A stretch of 64,000 nt of DNA from an uncultured bacterium (GTDB taxonomy: Bacteria > Elusimicrobiota > Elusimicrobia > Elusimicrobiales > Elusimicrobiaceae). The DNA lies in contig CASEWB010000009.1 of the NCBI GenBank assembly GCA_949291545.1, positions 1 through 64,000 on the forward strand, written 5' to 3'. Position 1 is the first letter of the stretch; every line of letters starts with the position of its first letter. Below the pieces are notes generated by a model. It had not been told where the DNA came from. It was given only the letters and a program-made list of their open reading frames with translations, and did not search any database. Positions 3,082 to 55,149 of this stretch are shown piece by piece. The translations under genes and the position numbers were made by a program.

Positions 3082-3714
3082 ATGGAAACTAAAGTTTTAG
3101 ATATCAAAGGAAAAGAAATTGGGACCTGCGCTCTGCCGGACAGCTTGTTTGCCGTCAAAGCCAACCCGACCTTCCTGCACGAAGTCATCACCGCCTTTTT
3201 GGCCAACCAAAGAAGCGGCACCGCTGACACGAAAACCCGCAGCGAAGTTTCCGGTACCGGTAAAAAACCGTGGAAACAGAAAGGCACCGGCCGCGCCCGC
3301 CAGGGCAGCTTGCGCGCCGTTCAGTTCCGCCACGGCGGTATCGCTTTTGGTCCGACCCCGCACTCCTATCGTCAGGATTTGCCGGCCGCCAAAAGAAGAA
3401 CCGCGCTTGCGATGGCTCTTTCCACCAAACTCGCCGAAGGTAACCTGGTGGTGTTGGACTCTTTGACCTTCAAAGAACCCAAAACCAAAGCCTTTGCGGA
3501 CGTGTTGGAAACCTTAGCCGCCGGCCGCAAACCGCTCGTGCTCGACAACTTTGCCGACGCGAACGCCGCTTTGGCCTGCCGCAACGTGGAAGGGCTCACG
3601 CACATTCAAACGCAGGACATCAACGCCTACGTCGTGCTCAACAGCTCCAAAGTCATTTTGACTAAAGACGCCGTTGAAAAACTGAGCGAAACTTTCGCCA
3701 AGGAGGGCAAATAA
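3082..3714 (+). CDS. rplD: 50S ribosomal protein L4
   Basis: The 210-residue protein has the L4 hallmark loop GKKPWKQKGTGRARQGSLRA followed by HGGIAFGPTP, which lines the exit tunnel. In E. coli L4 also represses its own operon by binding the S10 leader; the structured leader upstream of rpsJ makes that possible here. The last base of its stop codon is the first base of the rplW ATG, so translation of the two is coupled. Confidence 0.98.
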   Translation: METKVLDIKGKEIGTCALPDSLFAVKANPTFLHEVITAFLANQRSGTADTKTRSEVSGTGKKPWKQKGTGRARQGSLRAVQFRHGGIAFGPTPHSYRQDLPAAKRRTALAMALSTKLAEGNLVVLDSLTFKEPKTKAFADVLETLAAGRKPLVLDNFADANAALACRNVEGLTHIQTQDINAYVVLNSSKVILTKDAVEKLSETFAKEGK

Positions 3715-10740: not shown

Positions 10741-11202
10741 ATGGTAACTTTGAATAAACTTTTCCCTAAACATGGTTCTAGAAAAGAAAAAAGACGCTTG
10801 GGCTTGGGCCCGGGTTCGGGTTTGGGCAACTACTGCACCAAAGGTATGAAAGGCCAAACCTCCCGCTCTGGTAACACCCGCAAAGAAAGCAAAGAAGGCG
10901 GCCAGATGCCGCTTATCCGCCACACGCCGAAAAGCGGTTTTTCCAATAAAGACTTTGCCAGACGTTACGATTATGTAAACGTCGGCTCGTTGGAAAAAGT
11001 GTTTGCGGCGGGTGCGGAAGTCACCCCGGAAGCCTTGAAAAAAGCCGGTATCATTCACGACGCTGCTCGCGTAAAAGTGTTGGCGAATGGTTCTTTGACC
11101 AAGGCGTTGAAAGTGTCTGCCCATGGTTTTTCTGCCACCGCGAAAGCGGCGATTGAAAAAGCCGGCGGCACTGTGACCGTGCTTGAACAGAAGACCAAAT
11201 AA
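10741..11202 (+). CDS. rplO: 50S ribosomal protein L15
   Basis: The 153-residue protein has the basic glycine-rich N-terminal part (KRRLGLGPGSGLGNYCTKGM, KGQTSRSGNTRKES, GGQMPLIRHTPKSGFSN) and the C-terminal AHGFSATAKAAIEKAGGTVT typical of L15. No rpmD (L30) gene lies between rpsE and rplO; its loss is common outside a few phyla. The last base of its stop codon starts the secY ATG. Confidence 0.98.
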   Translation: MVTLNKLFPKHGSRKEKRRLGLGPGSGLGNYCTKGMKGQTSRSGNTRKESKEGGQMPLIRHTPKSGFSNKDFARRYDYVNVGSLEKVFAAGAEVTPEALKKAGIIHDAARVKVLANGSLTKALKVSAHGFSATAKAAIEKAGGTVTVLEQKTK

Positions 11203-12539
11203 TGGCTAACAACACAGTTGCAAATATCTTTAACGCCCCCGAACTCAAGAAGAGACTCCTCTTCTTGATCGGGGCGTTGGCTGTTTTCCGGATTGCGGCT
11301 GCAATCCCAATACCCGGCATTAACACGGACGTCTTGAAACAAATGTTTGCCGCCCACCAAAACGGTATTTTAGGTTTTATGAATATCTTTTCGGGCGGAG
11401 CGTTGGGCAAGTTCTCCATTTTAGCGCTGGGCATTATGCCGTACATCAACGCATCCATCATTATGGGCCTCGTGCGCGGCGCGCATATTTTCCCCGCGCT
11501 GGACAGAATGCACAAAGAGGGTGAATCCGGCAGAAGAAAAGAAAACCAGATTACCCGTATTTTTGCACTGTTCTTAGCCTTGCTGCAGGGTGCGATGATG
11601 ACCTTCGCCATCACGAAAGTGGAAGGCGCAGGCGGCGTATCTGCGGTAGTCAATCCGTCTTTTATGTTTTTCGTCACCACCGTGCTGACCTTGGCGGCCG
11701 GTACGATGTTTGTGATGTGGCTGGGCGAACAGATTACGGAAAAAGGGGTGGGCAACGGTATTTCGCTCATCATTTTTGCCGGCATCGTGGACCGCTTGCC
11801 GGGCGCTATTATGGAAGTCGTGCACCGCGTACAAACCGAAGAAATGGATTTCTTTATGGCTTTGGTTATTTTTGCGGCGGCGATTATCATTACCGCGCTG
11901 GTGGTGTGGCTGGAAACGGCCCAACGCCAAATTCCGGTTCAGTACGCCAAACGCCAGGTAGGGAACAAAACCTATGGCGGGCAGACCAGCTATTTGCCGC
12001 TTAAGATAGATCAGAGCGGCGTAATTGCGGTAATCTTTGCCTCGTCTGTTATTTCCTTGCCGTTGACGATTGCCAGCTTTAACCAAGAAGCTCCCTGGGC
12101 GCAGAAAATGTTGGAAGCTATGAGCCATAGCAGCGTGCTGTATATGGTCATTTTCTCGGCGCTGATTATCTTCTTCTGCTATTTCTACAACTCGATGACG
12201 ATTAACCCGTCCGATTTGGCGGATAATATGAAGAAGTGGGGCGGCTTTATCCCGGGTATTCGCCCCGGCGAACCGACCAAGAACTACATCGAGTGGGTGA
12301 TGAACCGCTTGACGTTCTGCGGTGCGATTTTTGTCTGTCTGATTGCAGTTCTGCCGGATTTCTTCCGTGCGGAATTTGACGTGGACTTTTACTTCGGCGG
12401 TACGGCGCTGTTAATCGTAGTCGGTGTGGCGCTGGATACCGTGGGGCAAGTGCAAGCCCACCTGTTGGCCCGTAACTACGAGCCGCTGATGAAAGGCAGC
12501 AAACGCATTAAAGGCCGCTGGTTTAACGTTGGTCAGTAA
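11202..12539 (+). CDS. secY: Protein translocase subunit SecY
   Basis: The 445-residue membrane protein is the channel of the Sec translocon. About ten hydrophobic segments are seen, with the SecY markers AAIPIPGINTD (TM1/plug region), NIFSGGALGKFSILALGIMP, TEKGVGNGISLIIFAGIVDR (TM4-5) and the cytoplasmic loop ending GFIPGIRPGEPTKNYIEWVM. Length is normal. It overlaps rplO by one base, so it is translated with the ribosomal genes, as in most bacteria. Confidence 0.98.
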   Translation: MANNTVANIFNAPELKKRLLFLIGALAVFRIAAAIPIPGINTDVLKQMFAAHQNGILGFMNIFSGGALGKFSILALGIMPYINASIIMGLVRGAHIFPALDRMHKEGESGRRKENQITRIFALFLALLQGAMMTFAITKVEGAGGVSAVVNPSFMFFVTTVLTLAAGTMFVMWLGEQITEKGVGNGISLIIFAGIVDRLPGAIMEVVHRVQTEEMDFFMALVIFAAAIIITALVVWLETAQRQIPVQYAKRQVGNKTYGGQTSYLPLKIDQSGVIAVIFASSVISLPLTIASFNQEAPWAQKMLEAMSHSSVLYMVIFSALIIFFCYFYNSMTINPSDLADNMKKWGGFIPGIRPGEPTKNYIEWVMNRLTFCGAIFVCLIAVLPDFFRAEFDVDFYFGGTALLIVVGVALDTVGQVQAHLLARNYEPLMKGSKRIKGRWFNVGQ

Positions 12540-40110: not shown

Positions 40111-40142
40111 GGAAGAAAGATTTCATTTTTTGGAGGATGCCC

Positions 40143-40826
40143 ATGCGTAAAAGTTTGTTGGTGCTGTTTGTGATGGTTCTATTTACTTCTGTTGGTTTTA
40201 GCCAAAATATGGCGCTTCGCAAAGCTGAATATAGACAACTCTTATCTCAAAGGCAGGAACTGCTTTCCTGGAGCAAAGAAAATCCGCTCGCTCCGCGTTT
40301 TATGGAGATTATAAAAGAAAAAGAAGCCCGCAAAATCCGTACCCAGCTGTATACAGATTTTTTCGATTTTAGACAAAAAGAAGTTTCCGCATTTAAACAA
40401 GACCTTCGCCGGGAAATCCAAAAAGCGGCCAATGCGCCTTTTATCACTTTTAATACACTCCCTGCCAAAAACTTGCAAAAACTAGCCCGCCGCCCGGAAT
40501 TTTTAGTGGAATTTTTGTCGCTGTATCCGGACAATGTGGTTATGCTGTCGGATGCGTTTTTAACCAAATTGTTTAAACAAAACGAAAAGTTGGAAAATTT
40601 AGTAGTGTCCTATTTCCTGTATTTAAAAAGCTACAATACGGATTCGTCCTGCGTAAAGTTTTCGGAAGGGGAAGAACGTCAATTAAAAGGCTTTTATAAG
40701 TCCGGCAATATGGAACGCTTTTATGAAAGCTTGTCGTTGTATGCCGCTTCTAACTTAACGGCCAAAAAACAGGCGTTGGCCCGCAATTATGTAAAGAAAT
40801 CCTTGGCGTGCTCTTTTACTTTTTAA
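40143..40826 (+). CDS. Exported protein of unknown function
   Basis: The 227-residue product has a signal peptide (MRKSLLVLFVMVLFTSVGFS) with probable cleavage near FSQ. The mature part is basic and mainly helical, with charged runs (KEKEARKIRTQLYTDFFDFR) and no catalytic motif I recognise; two lone cysteines are present. GGAGG at 40132-40136 supports ATG 40143 rather than the ATG that touches it at 40137. It stands alone between a promoter and a terminator. Confidence 0.75.
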   Translation: MRKSLLVLFVMVLFTSVGFSQNMALRKAEYRQLLSQRQELLSWSKENPLAPRFMEIIKEKEARKIRTQLYTDFFDFRQKEVSAFKQDLRREIQKAANAPFITFNTLPAKNLQKLARRPEFLVEFLSLYPDNVVMLSDAFLTKLFKQNEKLENLVVSYFLYLKSYNTDSSCVKFSEGEERQLKGFYKSGNMERFYESLSLYAASNLTAKKQALARNYVKKSLACSFTF

Positions 40827-43766: not shown

Positions 43767-44302
43767 TGTATCAAGGTATTCGGATTGCCGGTTTCGGCGG
43801 ACAGGGCGTTATTTCCGCAGGGATTCTCCTGGCGCAGGCCGGCGTGGAAGACAAAAAAAACGCCAGCTGGCTGCCTTCGTACGGGCCCGAAATGCGCGGC
43901 GGTACGGCCAATTGCTCGGTAGTGGTGACAGACGGGGAAGTGTATACTCCTATTGTGTCTGTACCGGATACGGTTATTATTATGAACGAGCCGTCTCTGC
44001 CGAAGTTTGAACCGCTGCTTAAAAAAGGCGGGCTGATGATTATCAACAGTTCGCTGATTAACTCCCGCCCGACTCGTACCGACATTACTGTCGTTTGTGT
44101 ACCGTGCAACAAAATTGCCGAAGAATTAGGTATGGGCCGTATTGCCAACTTGGTGGCGTTGGGCGCCTTTATTCAAAAAACGGGTGCCGTAACACTGCAA
44201 AGCGTGGAACACGCCATGAAGAAAGTATACAAACGCGCCAAACCGGAAATGCTGGAGCTGAACAAAAAAGCGTTAGAAGCCGGATATAACGCAGTGAAGT
44301 AA
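43766..44302 (+). CDS. 2-oxoacid:ferredoxin oxidoreductase, gamma subunit
   Basis: The 178-residue subunit starts MYQGIRIAGFGGQGVISAGI and has WLPSYGPEMRGGTANCSVVV, the hallmark of the gamma domain. The final 12 codons (KKALEAGYNAVK) lie in a segment duplicated in tandem downstream with the terminator. Its ATG shares one base with the beta stop codon, and GAGGGAGG is its ribosome binding site. Confidence 0.94.
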   Translation: MYQGIRIAGFGGQGVISAGILLAQAGVEDKKNASWLPSYGPEMRGGTANCSVVVTDGEVYTPIVSVPDTVIIMNEPSLPKFEPLLKKGGLMIINSSLINSRPTRTDITVVCVPCNKIAEELGMGRIANLVALGAFIQKTGAVTLQSVEHAMKKVYKRAKPEMLELNKKALEAGYNAVK

Positions 44303-44321
44303 AAGCGAAAAAGTAAGAATT

Positions 44322-44356
44322 TATCCCCTGGGGACGCAAGGCCCCGGGGGATTTTA
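44322..44356 (+). terminator. First terminator of the ferredoxin oxidoreductase operon
   Basis: ATCCCC-T-GGGG pairs with CCCC-G-GGGGAT around ACGCAAGG, with one mismatch, followed by TTTTAATG. Confidence 0.8.
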
Positions 44357-44424
44357 ATGCCTCATTAAAAAAAGCGTTAGAAGCCGGATATAACGCAATG
44401 AAGTAAAAGCGAAAGAGCAAGATT

Positions 44425-44459
44425 TATCCCCTGGGGACGTAAGGCCCCGGGGGATTTTA
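44425..44459 (+). terminator. Second, duplicated terminator
   Basis: The hairpin of 44322-44356 is repeated with one loop change (ACGTAAGG). It sits 103 bases downstream of the first and belongs to the same tandem repeat. Confidence 0.8.
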
Positions 44460-44551
44460 ATGCGATACCATAAGGCCTAGCAGCAAAATGGGTCTTTTTT
44501 CCCTTGTGGCAGGGCACCTAAAGAGTTAAGTTATGGGTAAGAGGAGCTTAT

Positions 44552-45667
44552 ATGAAAAAACTGCCAGCCCTGCTGTTTATATGTTGTTTGCTGTATCCCG
44601 CCGGGAATGTTTTCGCGCAAGGACGCCATATATCTACCTTGCAGGTTCTTCGTTCCGGTATGTTTTCTGCTAACTGCAACAAAGTTTCCCGTATTGCGGC
44701 GCGGGAGTTCTTTGCTAACAAAGTCCCGCTTTCTGTTTCGCAATTTAAAACACCGGAAGACATTCGCAAAAGTTTACTGGCCCATGGGGTGCAGGAAAGT
44801 TTGCGCAAGTCTGAGCTATATCGCGAAAATTTAAATAAATTTTTAGAAATCAAAAGAGAAATGGACATTTTCCTGCGTTACCAACAGCTTGAACCGCAAA
44901 AAGTGTCGCTGGCGGAAGTAAATGCCCGCTGGGCGTACGCTAATAAAGCGTTATCTGCGTTGCAGGAAATGGAACGTATCGTTGGAGCGCGCGACCCGGG
45001 CGTCCATCTGGGCAAGTTGTATATGGAAAAAGTCCTTGCGGCCTTAAAACCCACCTATACGGGTAAAGTTTTGCGGAACAAAGATATTGCAATGCCGGGC
45101 AAATTCCGCGAGGAACATTCCTTTAATAAAGACCAATTCTTGTTAAAAGACGCGGACGGGACTTCCTTAACCATGAAGAACACTTCTCCCGGGTCGGACG
45201 GGTTTAACAAAGCATGCCAAATGGCTGCTGAACTGCCCCCCATGACAATAGCCGTCTTAAACGACGATCCGGAAATTTTGGAATGGGCCTGCAATTGGGG
45301 TTCACAGGGCTTTTTAGGCAAAGGCAGCCGCGTAGCGGTGTTTGATTCCTTAAACAAATTAATGGAATGGACCAAAGACATCAAATACGATGTAATTTTG
45401 ATGGATTATGTGTTGGAAGACGGCATAAGTGTATTTATGATTGACCGCATCCGTATGGCTGGCGATAAATCTACCGTTATTTTGGTAAACAGCGCTTTGA
45501 TGGACGACGAGGTCCCCGCAAAAGAATTATTTGAGCACGGGGCAGACGGCTTTATTTCCTCGGTGGGCTTCCGTGCCGATAATGGCGGTGCCCGCATTGC
45601 TAACGCGTTATACAATTATATGCAACAGCACGGGCGGGAAGCGCTTACACCGCACGCAAAGCGCTAA
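44552..45667 (+). CDS. Exported protein with a C-terminal receiver-like domain
   Basis: The 371-residue protein has a signal peptide (MKKLPALLFICCLLYPAGNV, cleavage near VFAQ), a helical middle (about 30-230) and a C-terminal part resembling a response-regulator receiver. There MTIAVLNDDPEILEW gives the acidic pair, YDVILMDYVLEDG the phosphoacceptor-like aspartate, TVILVNSALMDDEV the hydroxyl position, and GADGFISS falls where the conserved lysine should be, which is missing. A receiver outside the cytoplasm has no known phosphodonor. It may be a degenerate protein-binding module. AAGAGGAG precedes the ATG. Confidence 0.75.
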   Translation: MKKLPALLFICCLLYPAGNVFAQGRHISTLQVLRSGMFSANCNKVSRIAAREFFANKVPLSVSQFKTPEDIRKSLLAHGVQESLRKSELYRENLNKFLEIKREMDIFLRYQQLEPQKVSLAEVNARWAYANKALSALQEMERIVGARDPGVHLGKLYMEKVLAALKPTYTGKVLRNKDIAMPGKFREEHSFNKDQFLLKDADGTSLTMKNTSPGSDGFNKACQMAAELPPMTIAVLNDDPEILEWACNWGSQGFLGKGSRVAVFDSLNKLMEWTKDIKYDVILMDYVLEDGISVFMIDRIRMAGDKSTVILVNSALMDDEVPAKELFEHGADGFISSVGFRADNGGARIANALYNYMQQHGREALTPHAKR

Positions 45668-45693: not shown

Positions 45694-45720
45694 CAGGGGA
45701 GCATTTGCTCCCCTGTTTTT
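45694..45720. terminator. Terminator between convergent genes
   Basis: AGGGGAGC pairs with GCTCCCCT around ATTT, followed by GTTTTT on the plus strand; the minus side has a poorer T run. Confidence 0.85.
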
Positions 45721-50807: not shown

Positions 50808-51872
50808 TTACAGCGTAACGCTTAAAATGATGAAGTACGCAATCATCACTGCCGCGCCCAATCCTACAGCCGCTTTGGCCCATTCTTTGCTTTTAATGCC
50901 CAGTTTGGAGGCGCAAATAATGTTGGGAATGTTGCCGGGGATTAACATACCGCCGGAAACAATCAAGCTCATAAGCAGGAACGTCAGCGTGCGGGTGCTG
51001 ATATCGGGTGTGACTTCGATAGCCGCCAGGGTGGCGTTGTCCAGCACGGCGGAAAGGGTGTTAATCCAATACAGCCAGCTGGCCGACAAGTGGGAAATCG
51101 TCTGCATGGCAAGGGGTTTTAAGCCATCGCCCAAGAAGACCAACGCCATTACAAACAGGTACACTTTGGCCGCGCGGATTACAATGCTTTTAATGGAATG
51201 TTCGTCCGGGGCGGAGGCGTCGGCCGGTTTGGGGCCGGGGGCTTTTTGAATGGTTTTTTCGCGGATGGCGCTTGCTAGACCGGACATAAACACAATTCCA
51301 CCCAATACAAACCAACCTAAGTGGTCAATTAAAAAGAAAAAGTCGGCGTTGTGCGGTTCACCGGAGAGTTTGGATAACACAACCGTGCCCAGCGGTTCCC
51401 CAATGGACGTTAACACCGCGCCCATGCCAATAGAAAAACACGCATACACCACTAATTTTACGCGGCCTTTGCGTTCCAACGGCAGCATTACGGCCACTTC
51501 GGACAAAATGAGCGCCGCGATAATAGCAGTGATTAAACTGGAAGTAATGCCTAAAATAAAAACAATCAAAAACAAGGTCCAGCGCAGGCCCAGCACTTTT
51601 ACGGCTTTTTGCGTAAGTTTTTGAATGTTTTTGTTAAATTTGCGGAACAACAACCCGGCTACCAACACAGCCAATGTAATTTTAATCGGGTCTTCCAAGG
51701 CGGTCAGCACCAAGTGCCCGCTCCATACTTTAGATACGGTTACGGCGAATGCCCCGCAGAGAAATAAAAACGCTTCCAAATTTTCTTCCACTTTATGCAC
51801 GGTAAGCGGCAAAAACAGCACGACGGCAATCAGCAAAGAAAGAAGCGTCGTTTGCACGACGGAAAGTTCCAT
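50808..51872 (-). CDS. DUF1646 family membrane transporter
   Basis: The 354-residue protein has about ten hydrophobic segments and resembles DUF1646, a putative member of the ion transporter superfamily: LSEVAVMLPLERKGRVKLVV, GMGAVLTSIGEPLGTVVLSK, and the C-terminal LSAVLDNATLAAIEVTPDIS and SGGMLIPGNIPNIICASKLG (a conserved N-P-type motif of NhaD/arsB-like carriers). A cation or organic acid is the likely substrate; no specific one can be given. AGAGGTA precedes the start. Confidence 0.8.
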   Translation of the reverse strand: MELSVVQTTLLSLLIAVVLFLPLTVHKVEENLEAFLFLCGAFAVTVSKVWSGHLVLTALEDPIKITLAVLVAGLLFRKFNKNIQKLTQKAVKVLGLRWTLFLIVFILGITSSLITAIIAALILSEVAVMLPLERKGRVKLVVYACFSIGMGAVLTSIGEPLGTVVLSKLSGEPHNADFFFLIDHLGWFVLGGIVFMSGLASAIREKTIQKAPGPKPADASAPDEHSIKSIVIRAAKVYLFVMALVFLGDGLKPLAMQTISHLSASWLYWINTLSAVLDNATLAAIEVTPDISTRTLTFLLMSLIVSGGMLIPGNIPNIICASKLGIKSKEWAKAAVGLGAAVMIAYFIILSVTL

Positions 51873-52170: not shown

Positions 52171-55149
52171 TTAAAAGCGCAGGGCGGCGTCCAATTTCAC
52201 ACCCCAGCCGTCCATTTGCCCGCCTTGCACAAATCCCGCCAGGCGCGCCAATACGCCTTGTTCGGGGCGCTGGTAGCTAAGCCCCAAACTTACCCGCCCC
52301 GTGCTGCCGCGCAGGGAAAGCCCGTCCACGCGGTGCGCTTCGATAGTGGCGGAACCTTTGGCATTAAATTCGTGCAGCCACTGGGCTTGCAAATCCGGGG
52401 TGAACGCGCCAAAAGCCAAGGCGTGCGGGGTGTAAGTTACGCCTAGCGTGCTAAGCAGGCTGTCGCTGCCGTGCAAGTAAATTGCTTCGCCCAGGTTGTC
52501 GGTTAAGCGGTCCCCTTCCAGGTGCGTCCAGCGCAGGCGTGCTTCGGCGGACAGGTCTTGCCAAAAAGTATATTGGGCCGAAGCTTGCAGCGAAGTAAAC
52601 ACGCTTTCATAATCAAACGAAGCGCCCGTTTCTTCCGAGCCGCCGTAGCTGGTGCTTTGCCAGCCGATGCGGGCATCGGCGCCCAGCTGCAGGTTTTCCA
52701 CGCCGTTCCACGCACCGAACACGCCACCCGCCCAAGAGGACGCATAGCTTTCCGCCCGGACGGGGGAGGTGTGGTAGTCCCCATAGGCGTAGCGGGCATA
52801 AAAACCACCCAACCAGTTGCCGGTTTTGGCATACAAGCCGCCTAATACGGTGGTGGCGTTCAAATCGACACTGCTTCCGGTTTCGTGTGTTACGTTTTCG
52901 TAGCTGCTTTGCATAAACGAACCGGTTTCCTGCTCGCTTTGCCAGGCGGAATGGACGGCATCAGTCAGCAAATTATCCCCGGCATTGGCCAATGCCAGGG
53001 CAGCCATATTGGTTTGAACATAAGTTTTGGCCCGTTCGGCGGAAAAGCCCCCCGCCAACAGCCAACCGGTAAGCCCGCTGGCTTGGGCCTGCGGCGTTAA
53101 AGAATAGGTGTAAACGCCCGAATTGGGGGCATGCAGCGAAAAATTGGAATTTTCGTCCGGTGTTTGGATAATCACGCGGCCGTCTACATCGCTGATGCCT
53201 TGCACATATACTTCCCCTTGGGCCACATTTTGGGCAAAGGTGACGGACGTATCCGCCCCAGAAATAATATAAGGCTTATCAAACCCGTCCAGGCTTAAGG
53301 CCTGGTCACTTTGGAAGTTAAGCAACGTCAGCTGATTGTTCCCGCCGTTCCCGCCGTAAATGGTGCCTAAAACGCTGCTCTGGCCCGAAAGCGTGACGGT
53401 GTTATTTCCGCCTTGCTCGGCGGAGGAGGCGTATACGTCCCCGCTAACGGTGGTGTTTTGCAAAATCACTTCGTTTTGGGACGCGGAAGAGTGAACCCCT
53501 TCTGCCAGGGCGCCGTATACATTGCCCGTGATTTGCGTGTTTGCCAGCCAAACGCGGTTGTTATTGGCGGTGGTGTAGTCCCCTTGGGCGCTCCCGCCGT
53601 ATACATTGCCGGTAAGGGTGGAAGAGTCCAGGTGCACCAAATTAGACGAGGCCGAAGAAAACGTGTCGTCTGTGATACCGTCCGGGTTGATATCGTCTTT
53701 GGTGGACACTAATCCGCCGTAAACATCGCCGGTTAATTGGCTGGCCGCGGCGGAAACCGTGTTGCCGTCTGCCTGGTACCCAATGGAAAAGTTTTGCTGC
53801 CCTTCTGCTGTAAGGGTTTGGCGTTCGTTTTCGGCCCAGCCGCCGGCCAAGATGGCGGCGGTTACTTCGGAGTCCGTAATGTCTACCGCATTGTAGTTGG
53901 CCCAGCCGCTAAAGTTTTTGGCGGCGGCTATATGGGCCGAACTGTTGCCAGCGGAAGAACCGGAAATGGAAAGCGTGTTGTTTTCCGCTGCGGTTTGGAC
54001 GGTGTTCCAATCTACGGTAGTATCGCTGGTTTGCACCCGGGCGTTGGAAACATGCGCCCCGTACACATCGCCTTGGGCCACGGAACCGCCGGCTAAGACC
54101 ACTTGGTTGCCGTAAGCCTGCACACTGTGGCTTTGGGCCCCATAGATGTTCCCCGAAGCGGAGGAATTATTGTACAGCAAGACGCTGTTGTTATTGGCGG
54201 TATTTTCAATGGTGGCGGGTTGCGAACCGGAATAAAAAATATCCTGCCCGAACGAAACGCCGTATAAGTTGTCCGCAGAGGAGTTGACCAGGGTAATGCG
54301 GTTGCCGTTGGTAGTTAAACCGCCGTATGCGCCGATAGCGTCGTTAATTTGGGAGGCAGAAACCGTAATGCTGTTATTGTCCACCGTCAGCGGGTCCTTG
54401 ATAGAAGGGTTCCAGTTGGCTCCCAGGCTGCCGGCGCCCACCAATAAGCCGGTTACTTGGGCGTCCGTTACGGTAATGGAATTATCGTGCAGGTGGGTAG
54501 CTTCCAAATAAGGAGAATAAGCCGCCATCAAGTTGTTGCCAATCACGCTGTTATTGCCCGATACAATAATTTGGTTCCCGGCGGCTTCCCCATTGGCCAC
54601 CATGCCCCCGTAAGTAGTGTAGAAAGACGACTCGGGCGTGAGGTCCCCGGCTGTTTTGACCGTATCGGACGCCATGCTGGAAAGGACATAAGTGTCGTTT
54701 CCTTGGTCGTCGTAGCGGTGCTCCGCCTGGTAAGAAGAGAGAGTAGTCATTTCTTGCAAGGCGGCGCCTTCGTTTACCTTGGATTGAGTGATTTGGACAA
54801 TGTTTTGGTTGGCTTGCGTACCATAGGTGGATTGACCGGCAATAATATTGCGGTTGACGGTGGAGTCTGTAATTTCAATACGGTTTTGGCTGGCGCTTGC
54901 GTACACGGCCCAGCCGCCGACCACTTGGGAATTATGCAGCGGGCTGTTGTTGTTTTGAATGGTGCTGTTTGTAATGATGACCGTGTTGCCGTCAGCCGTT
55001 TGTTGGCCGTGTCCGGCGATTACCTCTTCGGCCCCGGCTACTGTTTGGCCGTCATACGTCAGTGTATGGTTGCTGTCGTTATCGGGCAAGGCTCCGGCAG
55101 GCAGAGCCCATAATAAAAAACTGGCTATCAACGCAGAGTGTATTTTCAT
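52171..55149 (-). CDS. Autotransporter with repetitive passenger
   Basis: The 992-residue protein has a signal peptide (MKIHSALIASFLLWALPAGA), a passenger of about 700 residues and a C-terminal beta-barrel of about 270 residues ending in phenylalanine (GVKLDAALRF), the type Va secretion layout. The passenger has over fifteen imperfect repeats of 25-40 residues. A typical unit has an Asn, a short V/I strand, an Ser/Thr-rich turn and a GDVYGG or GNIYGA motif; it should fold as a beta-solenoid. No protease or lipase motif is seen, so adhesion or surface coating is likely. AAGGAGAAACC precedes the ATG. Confidence 0.9.
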   Translation of the reverse strand: MKIHSALIASFLLWALPAGALPDNDSNHTLTYDGQTVAGAEEVIAGHGQQTADGNTVIITNSTIQNNNSPLHNSQVVGGWAVYASASQNRIEITDSTVNRNIIAGQSTYGTQANQNIVQITQSKVNEGAALQEMTTLSSYQAEHRYDDQGNDTYVLSSMASDTVKTAGDLTPESSFYTTYGGMVANGEAAGNQIIVSGNNSVIGNNLMAAYSPYLEATHLHDNSITVTDAQVTGLLVGAGSLGANWNPSIKDPLTVDNNSITVSASQINDAIGAYGGLTTNGNRITLVNSSADNLYGVSFGQDIFYSGSQPATIENTANNNSVLLYNNSSASGNIYGAQSHSVQAYGNQVVLAGGSVAQGDVYGAHVSNARVQTSDTTVDWNTVQTAAENNTLSISGSSAGNSSAHIAAAKNFSGWANYNAVDITDSEVTAAILAGGWAENERQTLTAEGQQNFSIGYQADGNTVSAAASQLTGDVYGGLVSTKDDINPDGITDDTFSSASSNLVHLDSSTLTGNVYGGSAQGDYTTANNNRVWLANTQITGNVYGALAEGVHSSASQNEVILQNTTVSGDVYASSAEQGGNNTVTLSGQSSVLGTIYGGNGGNNQLTLLNFQSDQALSLDGFDKPYIISGADTSVTFAQNVAQGEVYVQGISDVDGRVIIQTPDENSNFSLHAPNSGVYTYSLTPQAQASGLTGWLLAGGFSAERAKTYVQTNMAALALANAGDNLLTDAVHSAWQSEQETGSFMQSSYENVTHETGSSVDLNATTVLGGLYAKTGNWLGGFYARYAYGDYHTSPVRAESYASSWAGGVFGAWNGVENLQLGADARIGWQSTSYGGSEETGASFDYESVFTSLQASAQYTFWQDLSAEARLRWTHLEGDRLTDNLGEAIYLHGSDSLLSTLGVTYTPHALAFGAFTPDLQAQWLHEFNAKGSATIEAHRVDGLSLRGSTGRVSLGLSYQRPEQGVLARLAGFVQGGQMDGWGVKLDAALRF
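53350..55010 (-). repeat. Repeat region of the autotransporter passenger
   Basis: Within the gene, repeated units carry NxVxLxxSxxxGxVYG-like blocks, for example NLVHLDSSTLTGNVYGG, NRVWLANTQITGNVYGA and NEVILQNTTVSGDVYAS. The DNA is not strictly repeated, so the units have diverged. It is a protein repeat, not a CRISPR. Confidence 0.8.

Follow-up and report, generated by a model that had tools for sequence, protein, structure and literature searches.

Receiver domains of predicted extracytoplasmic location form a family in gut Elusimicrobium

Response-regulator receivers (PF00072), such as CheY and KdpE, belong to the commonest protein domains in nature. In their active site the second acid of the DD pair (DD2) binds a cation directly and the first (DD1) binds it through water, while the Ser/Thr (T) and lysine (K) bind the phosphoryl group (PMC12632262). 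Bacterial pseudo-receivers (PsRs) are receivers that lack at least one of the five catalytic residues; in about 80% of them DD2 is non-acidic, the phosphoacceptor aspartate is about 65% conserved, and their roles are largely open (PMC12632262). Aspartate-less receivers (ALRs) likewise depart from the five conserved residues (PMC4395418).

The gene studied here lies in a 64,000-nucleotide stretch of DNA from an uncultured Elusimicrobiaceae bacterium, the whole of which is called the window. Its product has in common with PF00072, CheY and KdpE the profile, the fold, the aspartate at the phosphoacceptor position, the DD2 acid and the Ser/Thr. To these its family adds a predicted signal peptide and a C-terminal receiver set behind a genus-specific helical bundle, with the lysine absent and asparagine at DD1. 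The missing lysine and DD1 acid make the protein a pseudo-receiver by the published definition, and like the described PsRs it is a receiver without the residues for phosphotransfer. It differs from them in that both direct metal ligands are kept in every member, whereas most PsRs lose DD2, and in its predicted place outside the cytoplasm, a location absent from the PsR review (PMC12632262). The aspartate is invariant, which is the opposite of the ALR pattern (PMC4395418) and ruled out that class. A search limited to open papers gave no precedent for exported receivers. The domain is a known one in a new variant form, not a new fold.

A receiver domain behind a predicted signal peptide

The open reading frame was confirmed at its coordinates and encodes 371 amino acids. 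It and its parts are listed in Table 1.

Table 1. Positions of the gene, its parts and the related giant proteins; coordinates are those of the window unless another locus is named.
Feature	Position	Strand	Basis
Whole gene, predicted exported pseudo-receiver	44552-45667	+	Open reading frame; purifying selection
Shine-Dalgarno-like AGAGGAG, just 5' of the ATG	44540-44546	+	Sequence
Signal peptide, residues 1-23, predicted cut between VFA and QG	44552-44620	+	Sequence; same type in relatives
Three-helix bundle, residues about 80-165	44789-45046	+	AlphaFold
Receiver (REC) domain, residues about 227-364	45230-45643	+	Profiles, predicted fold; best-conserved part among orthologues
N237-D238, where receivers have the DD pair	45260-45265	+	Family columns; profile-profile register
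D285, phosphoacceptor position	45404-45406	+	Family column, 101/101
S314, Ser/Thr position	45491-45493	+	Ser or Thr in 92/101
S337, where receivers have their conserved Lys	45560-45562	+	Lys in 1/101; profile-profile register
Terminator-like stem-loop 3' of the gene	45694-45715	+	Pattern match only
Giant proteins ending in the helical-plus-receiver unit	L040 2554-9045; L041, L042, L043, L045, L046		

A preliminary description of the gene, made from its sequence, had proposed a signal peptide, a helical domain and a receiver-like C-terminus, and all three were recovered. The Pfam Response_reg profile (PF00072) scores 27.6 bits against the whole protein and 29.6 bits against the C-terminal part alone. 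The cut-off is 30.2 bits, and because the score falls just under it, ordinary annotation would probably miss the domain; NCBIfam gave weak, below-cut-off receiver matches for two small proteins of the family and nothing for the giant protein described below. A profile of 31 relatives matched 127 PDB sequences, and the best 60 of the 127 are all receivers or receiver-like, led by a designed receiver-like protein (E 3.3e-14) and with natural receivers from 2.7e-9. When the exported family was compared with the genome's own canonical receivers, profile to profile, the match had 99.1% probability (E 6e-19). The structure prediction that the preliminary description had proposed gave a receiver fold and no other: AlphaFold placed five alternating strands and helices in the C-terminal domain (pLDDT about 90), which groups with KdpE and CheY in Foldseek and VIA-align (for CheY, Z 13.3 and rmsd 2.5 over 125 residues). 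Chance resemblance was ruled out by the profile searches and the fold, and by both the C-terminal domain is a true receiver.

The helical part, N-terminal of the receiver, is predicted to be a three-helix bundle, but how it packs against the receiver is not fixed by the model because the overall pTM is modest (0.59). In structure comparison it matches unrelated proteins (best Z 9.2), no better than any three-helix bundle would. It has no invariant histidine, which ruled out an Hpt or DHp phosphotransfer domain. Among 90 genera of the phylum the bundle was found in one, with no match outside that genus (295 genomes of the phylum; 89 other genera).

Export was called with sequence rules written for this analysis, and all calls are rule-based only. 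By these rules the protein has the charged n-region, hydrophobic core and A-x-A type cut site of a Sec and type I signal peptidase substrate, with the cut predicted after residue 23. A strict rule for such a peptide was passed by 87 of the 101 family members, with Gln at +1 in 73; the 14 failures comprise five proteins cut by contig ends, one broken copy, six visible signal peptides that the rule missed and two unclear cases. Signal peptides also occur in all three paralogues within the window genome, whose eight canonical receivers have none. Among close orthologues the peptide is only 48-83% identical, yet its character is kept. Genes for signal peptidase I and for an Omp85 protein are present in the genome, and the window itself encodes SecY (11202-12539). 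A lipoprotein was ruled out, the cut site having no lipobox. Judged on these features, the family is very probably exported.

It could be argued that the protein is not exported at all, that its hydrophobic N-terminus is an anchor or is unused, and that the receiver stays in the cytoplasm and works with the usual partners. To our knowledge every other known receiver does work there, and further ATG codons are present downstream. We nevertheless regard this as very improbable: the first ATG is the one preceded by a Shine-Dalgarno-like sequence, and the type of signal peptide is kept while its sequence varies. The protein has a single hydrophobic segment with lysines before it, its mature part has no membrane-spanning segment, and the highest later peak of hydrophobicity is the buried beta3 strand. 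With lysines ahead of the sole hydrophobic segment and no second membrane segment behind it, the receiver would lie outside even if the signal anchor stayed uncut. The preliminary description had allowed that an anchor might hold the domain inside, which is unlikely for the same reason; its main reading, a receiver-like module outside the cytoplasm, is supported by the fold and the signal peptide, with export predicted.

Elsewhere in the window, 40137-40826 encodes a 229-residue predicted exported protein without a Pfam match, whose signal peptide is of the same style (SQ at the cut), and 52171-55149 on the minus strand encodes a 992-residue predicted exported, autotransporter-like repeat protein, also without a Pfam match.

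The phosphorylation-site pocket

The register of the alignment was set by profile-profile comparison, which puts LNDD opposite VVDD/E. It does not depend on the E. coli CheY sequence used as a guide, since the genome's canonical receivers give the same register. D238 (DD2) and D285 are invariant across the family despite its low mean identity, and R301 is the only further receiver column that is fully invariant. DD1 is Asn in the query (N237) and in 88 of the 101 members, so the acidic pair is not intact. The preliminary description had seen this pair in LNDDPE; the motif is there, but the register makes DD1 the Asn and DD2 the Asp. It had otherwise read the pocket correctly, with its central aspartate (LMDYVLEDG) being D285, its hydroxyl position S314 (Ser or Thr in 91% of members) and its missing lysine the one after beta5, where the query has S337. 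The sole member with the lysine is a paralogue in the same genome (L008:7284-8444), which has Lys-Pro at the canonical spacing.

Retention of D238 and D285 is unusual because the published PsR set mostly loses DD2. Since the side chains that bind metal directly are kept and the lysine is dropped, we propose a cation-binding module without phosphotransfer. We lean modestly towards a Sec-exported pseudo-receiver in which phosphotransfer has been lost and a divalent-cation pocket remains, and which works as an interaction module in the envelope. Type I signal peptidase would remove the first 23 residues of the Sec-exported protein, and the mature protein would fold outside the cytoplasm, the three-helix bundle first and then the receiver. 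With the direct ligands D238 and D285 in place, and the lysine and first acid for normal phosphotransfer gone, the domain would bind Ca2+ or Mg2+ in the envelope, a compartment that ATP and kinases should not reach. Once loaded with metal, the domain may serve there as a module for binding other proteins. The retained Ser/Thr counts against this explanation, as a pure metal site would not need it.

The same residues may also be read as a working phospho-receiver outside the cytoplasm, in which some donor or kinase would phosphorylate D285, supported by Ser314 and the metal where the lysine is missing. This seems improbable to us, as the lysine is absent in 100 of the 101 members and DD1 is mostly Asn, no histidine kinase gene adjoins the window gene or the paralogue array, and we know of no periplasmic phosphodonor for such domains. 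In its favor are the two invariant aspartates, the frequent Ser/Thr, the one paralogue that retains Lys-Pro with the right spacing, and the observation that substitutions at DD, T or K need not abolish phosphotransfer (PMC12632262).

If the pseudo-receiver reading holds, receivers that are consistently exported, with their metal ligands fixed and their lysine gone, would be a natural separation of metal binding from phosphotransfer. The family offers a soluble, testable case of the receiver fold where kinase and ATP should not reach, and it seems that a switch of the cell interior was put to new use as a module of the envelope.

The family and its chromosomal sites

Relatives with the same layout, which the preliminary description had suggested looking for, turned out to be numerous: 101 distinct members were collected from 61 genomes of one genus of gut Elusimicrobiota, Elusimicrobium. 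The window genome (1.55 Mb) has four members beside its eight ordinary receivers, and three of the four, the paralogues of the window gene, stand in tandem at G000:C6 242087-245762. About 85,000 species genomes were scanned with patterns from one family subset (a diverse alignment of 49 members was too divergent for patterns), and the matches that carry a taxon name are all from Elusimicrobiales, the others being metagenome bins. In a tree with 12 canonical receivers the exported ones form one group apart with 100/100 support, and a single origin is likely on this sequence tree, which holds few canonical rows. A PADLOC search of the family proteins gave no match, and a search of a viral library returned mainly ordinary viral receivers and kinases.

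Across the genus the members occupy several chromosomal sites. The window gene has korABC on one side and an MFS-pilin-trmL-glgP group on the other, and this order is the same wherever the relatives' contigs reach far enough. In the window, the 3' end of korC and a GC-rich hairpin are tandemly duplicated just 5' of the gene (44264-44354 and 44368-44458); L101 shares the duplication (at 3486 and 3593, 99% alike), L100 has part of it, and L102 and L053 lack it. The second main site is flanked by a DUF1646 transporter gene on one side and by the hydrogenase genes hydC-hydB-hydA on the other. Paralogues of the DUF1646 transporter occur near both exported-receiver sites of the window genome (window 50808-51872; L008 9935-10996), which may be coincidence.

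Compared with five orthologues, the whole window gene has a dN/dS of 0.09-0.12, which indicates purifying selection, and identity to these orthologues is 87-89% in the receiver part, compared with 53-77% in the rest of the mature protein. As far as sequence comparison can say, the receiver part of the protein matters. A pseudogene or vestige was ruled out by dN/dS values of 0.09-0.34 and by the receiver part being the most conserved. One copy in a five-gene array of exported receivers (L049 2550-3761) is split by a stop codon and is decaying.

The DUF1646-hydC site was readable in 45 genomes, in a tally made by hand from coordinates. Nineteen of them hold one to five tandem exported receivers, and in the other 26 the site is empty and the flanking genes adjoin, 65-536 bp apart. 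Compared with the window genome, members at this site are 30-62% identical while the flanks are mostly 75-98%, and the members have dN/dS values of 0.16-0.34 against 0.01-0.03 for the neighbouring hydB. This occupancy, identity and dN/dS together indicate a family whose members come and go at fixed sites and diverge quickly, though under purifying selection. Such a pattern would also suit a fast-changing envelope or surface decoy, for which the receiver fold is a scaffold and variation is the point, for example against phage or host factors; the variable tandem copies, the empty sites, the divergence relative to the flanks and the raised dN/dS all favor it. We hold this to be rather unlikely, because dN/dS stays well below 1 and conservation is highest in the pocket and the receiver part, so that variation is not the whole story, and because the window subfamily evolves no faster, by dN/dS, than its MFS neighbour.

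In seven genomes the helical-plus-receiver unit ends predicted exported proteins of about 1,830-2,170 residues. These giants carry one or two segments of about 300 residues in which one His and one Cys are invariant, and the surroundings of these two residues resemble those in clan CD cysteine proteases. The segments have no PDB or Pfam match, and the motif, as their one support, makes candidate clan CD-like proteases of them, which is a lead. Joining these observations to the metal pocket, one may tentatively picture, though we think it doubtful as a whole, that an Elusimicrobium receiver moved out of the cytoplasm and became a cation-dependent or otherwise switchable envelope module, and that this module multiplied and became joined to giant exported proteins carrying protease-like segments. 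It would be a receiver-based switch outside the cell membrane. Large frames with protease-like segments and without an exported-receiver match also occur in G001, G022, G024 and G033, and at G022:C9:12728-13501 such a segment is carried by an open frame of 4592 residues.
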